From positions 1-64,000 of the forward strand of contig JAIXUQ010000084.1 of NCBI GenBank assembly GCA_027483465.1: DNA of 64,000 nt, in the 5' to 3' direction. The position numbers and the translations under genes are program-made. Source of the DNA: Sphingomonadales bacterium (lineage in GTDB: Bacteria > Pseudomonadota > Alphaproteobacteria > Sphingomonadales > Sphingomonadaceae). This document shows, in pieces, positions 13,507 through 41,935 of the stretch. The stretch's first letter is position 1. Each line of letters starts with the position of its first letter. Under the pieces are notes generated by a model that searched no databases, had not been told where the DNA came from, and saw only the letters and a list, made by a program, of their open reading frames with translations.

Positions 13507-13932
13507 TCAGGCCGCCAGCCGGTCGAGCGAGAGATCAGCCAGGCTGGTGGTATCAAGGATATTGGCGGTCTGTTCGCGCACCACCAGCATCACCTTGCGG
13601 ATCACGCAGGTGGTTTCCTCGAAACAATCGGTGCAGCGCTGATAGGCCGAAACCGACACGCAGGGCACCAGCGCCAGCGGCCCTTCGATCAGGCGGATGA
13701 TCTCGCCGAAACTGATCTGGCTGGCCGGGCGGGCGAGGCGATAGCCGCCCATCTTGCCGCGATAGCTGGTGACCACGCCGCCATTCTTGAGATCGAGCAG
13801 GATCGCTTCGAGGAATTTGCGCGGCAATTTCTGATCGGCGGCGATGGTGGAAATCGGCACCGGCGCCATGCTGCCCGAACGGGCAATGAAGATGAGCGCG
13901 CGCAGCGCATAGCGGGATCGCTGGGTCAACAT
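13507..13932 (-). CDS. Rrf2 family transcriptional regulator with four-Cys cluster motif
   Basis: MLTQRSRYALRALIFIA wHTH; C-X8-C-X2-C-X5-C in PCVSVSAYQRCTDCFEETTC. Confidence 0.88.
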   Translation of the reverse strand: MLTQRSRYALRALIFIARSGSMAPVPISTIAADQKLPRKFLEAILLDLKNGGVVTSYRGKMGGYRLARPASQISFGEIIRLIEGPLALVPCVSVSAYQRCTDCFEETTCVIRKVMLVVREQTANILDTTSLADLSLDRLAA

Positions 13933-14018
13933 GGTCGGTGCTTTTCCTATGCACCAGCAAGGGATTGGTGCCAAGCCCGATCAGCAGGCCGGCAGCTGCG
14001 CATAATTTCCCGCAAATT

Positions 14019-14057
14019 GGGAAATTTCCCCAAAATTCATGATCAGGAAATTTCCTG
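14019..14057. promoter_or_regulatory. Paired palindromes GGGAAATTTCCC (14019-14030) and CAGGAAATTTCCTG (14044-14057)
   Basis: Perfect dyads; extra half site AATTTCCC at 14004-14011. Confidence 0.7.
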
Positions 14058-14139
14058 CGTCATGCCGTTGTAACACGCCGGTACAGGCAAGTGTTTGATT
14101 TTATTGAAAAGGGAAAAATCAGCGGGGCTGGCATGGCAG

Positions 14140-14156
14140 TTGGCACGGCGGTTGCA
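14140..14156 (+). promoter_or_regulatory. Sigma-54 (-24/-12) promoter TTGGCACG-GCGG-TTGCA
   Basis: Match to YTGGCACG-N4-TTGCW, GG-to-GC spacing 12; 60 bp upstream of the urcA ATG. Confidence 0.8.
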
Positions 14157-14215
14157 AAGCTGTTGGCATCGGCAGCCGGATAGGCCGGCAGCCGAAACAG
14201 ATACGAGGTCCCCCA

Positions 14216-14572
14216 ATGTTCACCACCGTCAAGAACCTGTCCCGCAACCTGGTCGGCGCTGCCGGCACCCTGTTGTTCGCTGGCCTGTGCATCACCGGCG
14301 CCACCGCCCCGGCCAACGCCCAGATCGCCTACAGCGTGAACGCCAGCGGCCACCGCGTTGCCCATGTGTCCTATGCCGATCTGGATCTGGCGAGCAAGGC
14401 CGGCCAGAACCGCCTGGAGAACCGCCTGCGCACCGCCTCCAAGCAGGTCTGCCATGGCAGCGCCAACGATCCCTGGGCCGTGGCCGAGGAATATCGCTGC
14501 TATCAGGAAACCCTGAAGGCCACCCGTTCGGCCACCATCGCCGCCATCGAAGCCGAGAAGATCGGCGGCTGA
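14216..14572 (+). CDS. UrcA family protein
   Basis: Signal peptide; VSYADLDLASKAGQNRLENRLRTASKQVC signature. Confidence 0.85.
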   Translation: MFTTVKNLSRNLVGAAGTLLFAGLCITGATAPANAQIAYSVNASGHRVAHVSYADLDLASKAGQNRLENRLRTASKQVCHGSANDPWAVAEEYRCYQETLKATRSATIAAIEAEKIGG

Positions 14573-41644: not shown

Positions 41645-41935
41645 TCAATCGGCCATGGTGGCCGGGCGCAGTTCGCGGGCGCGGGCCAGGGCGCTGGCGC
41701 GGCAGCGATCGACCAGCCGCGATTCGCTCAGATCACGCAGGCTGGTGAAGCTGCACACCTGCGTGGCGGCGCGGCGCAGGCGATCATCCAGCCGGCGCTG
41801 ATCGCCGGGCAGGGCCAGATCAAGATCGGCCACCACGACCTGGACGCTGGGCCCGGCGGCAACGGTGATCGTGTCAGTGGATGCAGCGGCGGCCGGCGCG
41901 GCGATCACCAGCGCGGCAAACAGGATATGGCGCAT
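41645..41935 (-). CDS. UrcA family protein (second paralogue)
   Basis: VVVADLDLALPGDQRRLDDRLRRAATQVC, same signature as 14216-14572. Confidence 0.75.
   Translation of the reverse strand: MRHILFAALVIAAPAAAASTDTITVAAGPSVQVVVADLDLALPGDQRRLDDRLRRAATQVCSFTSLRDLSESRLVDRCRASALARARELRPATMAD

Follow-up and report, generated by a model that had tools for sequence, protein, structure and literature searches.

UrcA proteins are named for their uranium induction in Caulobacter and form a family for which, to our knowledge, no function has been established; the UzcR motif of Caulobacter-type urcA genes is CATTAC-N6-TTAA. In the phage-shock (Psp) system of E. coli, PspA keeps PspF inactive until stress frees it, and IHF aids both PspF binding and looping at pspA (PMC9239133; PMC3709507). 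Only two PspF targets, pspA-E and pspG, are known in E. coli, and PspF outside the Enterobacteriaceae has been described as hard to link with the Psp response (PMC9239133). Caulobacter urcA is under UzcRS control, its UzcR/m_5 motifs lying 43 or 53 bp ahead of the start (PMC8963506). A literature search found no paper joining UrcA with phage shock, and a title and abstract search gave nothing relevant on PspF with Sphingomonas.

The window analysed here, a 64,000-nucleotide stretch, belongs to the 3.58-Mb genome (118 contigs) of a Sandarakinorhabdus-like sphingomonad and carries a urcA gene upstream of which several regulatory features are predicted (Table 1). Comparative sequence analysis (conserved sigma-54 promoter, shared enhancer, PspF and RpoN both encoded, quantised enhancer distances) indicates, with a probability of roughly 0.88, that this gene is a target of PspF and sigma-54 and a member of the phage-shock regulon. 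We infer binding of PspF at the urcA enhancer from a motif common with the pspF-pspA region.

Table 1 Features of the urcA locus, in window positions.
Feature	Position	Strand	Basis or remark
Rrf2-family regulator gene, divergent	13510-13932	-	PF02082 E=9e-38; outside the proposed mechanism
Rrf2-proximal element CTATGCACC...CAAG, probable Rrf2 promoter	13947-13975	-	Alignment of 23 urcA-Rrf2 loci and L078-L086
Predicted PspF-type enhancer (UAS), CC-N8-GG-N8-CC-N8-GG	14010-14040	+	Includes palindrome 14019-14030; top window match of pspA-trained matrix
Second palindrome CAGGAAATTTCCTG	14044-14057	.	Specific to the window genome
IHF-like site	14088-14100	-	WATCAANNNNTTR on minus strand; at -52 from the -24 element
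Predicted sigma-54 -24/-12 promoter	14140-14156	+	Sole exact genome match; 23/23 loci
Predicted transcription start	14167	+	About 12 nt past GC of -12 element; from sigma-54 promoter geometry
5′ UTR hairpin, directly after predicted start	14169-14195	+	Fold -18.9 kcal/mol, z about -2.9 in the window
Shine-Dalgarno-like GAGG	14205-14208	+	Sequence
urcA, 118-aa exported UrcA-family protein	14216-14572	+	TIGR04433 55.5 bits, cut-off 25

The promoter reads TTGGCACG-GCGG-TTGCA and its 3′ end lies 60 bp from the urcA ATG. With no mismatches, the pattern TTGGCACGNNNNTTGCW (TTGGCACG-N4-TTGCA) occurs once in the genome, at this site, while up to two mismatches give 157 matches genome-wide versus 83 for a backwards control; rpoN is encoded in the same genome (PF04552, E=1.2e-61). 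In an alignment of the window's intergenic region with those of L056-L077, the promoter occupies the same position at every one of the 23 Rrf2-urcA loci in the genus (Sandarakinorhabdus and relatives), with [CT]TGGCA[CT][GA]-N5-TGC preceding each urcA reading frame (22 complete, one cut by the end of its contig). The original prediction had placed an RpoN-type promoter exactly here, before a gene that it assigned to the UrcA family, and had pointed to related genomes as a check; the position and the family call (Table 1) are confirmed, and RpoN control with enhancer sites upstream is supported by conservation in the genus and beyond.

In the alignment, the enhancer is a block with near-invariant C, G, C and G, one per 10 bp. 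GGGAAATTTCCC (14019-14030) is the window's version of the centre of this conserved 31-bp element, which in the window is without its last GG. The second palindrome is absent from the 22 other orthologous loci aligned. Both palindromes had been located exactly and proposed as sites for an enhancer-binding protein; this stands for the first, as the core of the conserved enhancer, and not for the non-conserved second, so that only one of the two is part of the element, which also exceeds that palindrome in size.

Profile matches and gene neighbours identify five clear sigma-54 activators in the genome: PspF (equivalog match, 490 bits vs cut-off 443.6), adjoining divergent pspA, pspB and pspC; PrsR, standing with PrsK; NtrX; and FlbD-like and FlgR-like proteins, both judged by flagellar neighbours. 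PspF is present in all 24 genus genomes. When a matrix is built from the urcA enhancers, its best match in each of the genus's 24 pspF loci falls at one spot in the pspF-pspA intergenic region, 108-110 bp ahead of the pspA promoter. The matrix trained on pspA has its top match in the 64-kb window at 14008-14041 (score 24.7; next unrelated match, 1.2) and ranks the urcA intergenic region first in 22/22 orthologous loci. The urcA-enhancer and sigma-54 matrices were also run together on 73 loci of the window's own genome, among them 23 PEP-CTERM genes and the loci of the remaining activators; the only further pairing of the two was at the pspF-pspA intergenic region. A degenerate enhancer pattern gave 26 rows in 24 whole genomes (some counting one place on both strands) vs 1 control match, 22 rows falling at urcA or pspF and the other 4 at loci lacking a sigma-54 site; the pattern missed many known sites, so further targets may exist. 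The pspA enhancer (L178:6353-6386) runs right up to the start codon of pspF, and PspF binding there could also repress pspF, by analogy with E. coli, where such repression has been reported (PMC3709507).

It is conceivable that some factor other than PspF binds the motif at both the urcA and the pspA sites. That urcA is sigma-54 dependent and activated by PrsR, NtrX or the FlbD-like or FlgR-like protein is very unlikely: all of these are encoded in the genome, but the urcA and pspF-pspA enhancers match reciprocally, and neither the PEP-CTERM loci nor those of the other activators have the enhancer. Separately, control of the PrsR/PEP-CTERM type was considered and rejected, the 23 PEP-CTERM loci scanned containing no enhancer-plus-promoter pair. 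A sigma-54-like site (TTGGCACAGGGTTTGCA; G000:C102:4983-4999, minus strand, L206) upstream of one PEP-CTERM gene, without a PspF enhancer, may be a PrsR target.

At the family level, 60 of 401 Sphingomonadaceae genomes, which are related and therefore amount to fewer independent observations, matched a composite enhancer-plus-promoter pattern, compared with about a dozen matches for a backwards control and matches in 10 of 401 genomes for a control with the promoter one base short, in which the enhancer part of the pattern also differs slightly. The matches fall into three main classes of locus, namely pspF-pspA regions, UrcA-family genes in other genera and small PspC-domain genes, and those outside these classes look like chance or other genes. 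The occurrence of urcA enhancers in other genera means that regulatory sequence common to urcA and pspF-pspA extends across genera, and all 17 aligned UrcA proteins, the window's included, match TIGR04433. Of 24 family genomes checked, 23 have PspF; the exception, G271, has no PspF match at E<=1e-90, yet contains two UrcA matches with weaker enhancers. G062 (L305) has two urcA genes: one is inside the psp operon, placed between its promoter and pspA, and the other, on the far side of pspF, has an enhancer and a promoter of its own. The small PspC-domain genes of other genera (L261, L262, L289, L309, L313, L314, L321) have an enhancer-plus-sigma-54 arrangement of the same type, which suggests that they are further PspF targets. 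The window contains a second UrcA-family gene (41672-41923, minus strand); at the loci of this paralog and of another (C33:29-298) no sigma-54 or enhancer match was found.

An Rrf2 ortholog is present in 24/24 genus genomes, and also in 80 named loci. The palindromes lie in the intergenic region shared with this divergent gene and Rrf2 regulators bind dyad sites, hence the alternative, raised in the original prediction, that they are operators of the Rrf2 regulator. However, at L078-L086, which have the Rrf2 gene and no urcA, the enhancer is absent while the Rrf2-proximal element is largely kept, and the block recurs both at pspF-pspA and at urcA loci of other genera with no Rrf2 match nearby. 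The enhancer, missing where urcA is absent and present at urcA without Rrf2, thus follows urcA rather than Rrf2, leaving the operator reading highly improbable; the second, non-conserved palindrome may have such a role.

Enhancer-to-promoter distances across 79 promoters, a count that overstates independence as the genomes are related, are 88, 98-101, 108-110, 119-122 and 132 bp, with no values between. A step of about 11 bp is what DNA looping would produce if it brought activator and polymerase together on the same side of the helix. The window, at 132 bp vs 119-122 bp in its orthologs, is one helical turn longer. An IHF-like consensus (reverse of WATCAANNNNTTR) lies between enhancer and promoter in 19 of the 23 urcA loci, mostly at -40 to -42 from the -24 element. 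That the sigma-54-like promoter is a chance match is scarcely credible, since sites with one or two mismatches do commonly arise by chance but this one is exact, unique in the genome, conserved in 23/23 loci despite divergent flanks and in constant helical register with a conserved enhancer.

With urcA as a PspF target, the following sequence of events can be proposed. Stress on the inner membrane or the proton-motive force would cause PspA to let go of PspF, as in the E. coli Psp system, and PspF would then assemble on the enhancer. IHF would bend the DNA between enhancer and promoter, looping again being taken from E. coli, so that PspF could remodel sigma-54 RNA polymerase waiting at the -24/-12 element. 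The transcript, predicted to start near 14167 and to carry the 5′ hairpin, would encode exported UrcA. As the same Psp parts are present as in E. coli, the simplest reading is that UrcA would be made together with PspABC under membrane stress; stress induction of urcA is thus proposed by analogy with that system.

Folded individually, the 5′ UTRs of the 23 loci have a mean z of only -1.4, and RNAalifold gives 3 pairs with little covariation, the few pairs being due to a poor 5′ UTR alignment; the hairpin is therefore noted with no claim of a conserved RNA element. Its core, CCGG-AUGGU-CCGG, recurs in the genus and in a few other genera, with modest statistical support. UrcA alignments show a signal-peptide-like N-terminus followed by two invariant cysteines. 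The AlphaFold model is weak (mean pLDDT 64) and suggests, at low confidence, a beta hairpin and two helices, and a Foldseek search of the model against the PDB returned nothing significant (best E 0.32). Our guess would place the action of UrcA at the periplasmic face of the inner membrane.

In the genus, 23 of 24 loci have a small ORF of 41-74 aa as the first gene of the psp operon, and a small ORF before pspA is also found in most other family loci read. In the window's genome it lies between the putative PspF/sigma-54 promoter and pspA (L227, G000:C65; e.g. MTINVPQFGRTMMALVAALLIGSTFVAAATLPAMVTPAANSDIVA), as it does in nearly all of L228-L250 and L334-L357. Its profile aligns with the UrcA N-terminus (signal region) at 94% probability, although this likeness may reflect composition rather than descent, both being hydrophobic N-termini. 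We know of no counterpart to this ORF in the E. coli/Yersinia PspF regulon. Somewhat short of an even bet is the broader idea that the sphingomonad phage-shock response might have its own exported partners, with UrcA-family proteins as separate PspF targets and the signal-peptide-like small ORF together forming a lineage-specific Psp arm on the outer side of that membrane system's inner membrane.

The predicted link of UrcA with PspF and sigma-54, seen in several genera, points to UrcA as an envelope-stress protein and offers a testable role for a family until now without one. The analysis also defines a PspF-pspABC circuit and its enhancer in Alphaproteobacteria.

The closest described system is the E. 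coli/Yersinia PspF regulon (pspABCDE plus pspG), which is likewise built from PspF beside divergent pspABC and from an enhancer, an IHF-like site and a sigma-54 promoter. It also has one unlinked extra target, a position that urcA would occupy here, the difference being that the extra target is a UrcA-family exported protein and not PspG. PrsK/PrsR-RpoN control of PEP-CTERM genes is a sigma-54 activator system of the same genome, but the PEP-CTERM loci are without a urcA-type enhancer. Caulobacter crescentus urcA (UzcRS; uranium, zinc, copper) belongs to the same TIGR04433 family and is also periplasmic, whereas its UzcR/m_5 motifs are replaced here by a predicted sigma-54 promoter and PspF-type enhancer. 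PspF control would thus be no rule for the whole UrcA family, whose regulators differ by lineage.
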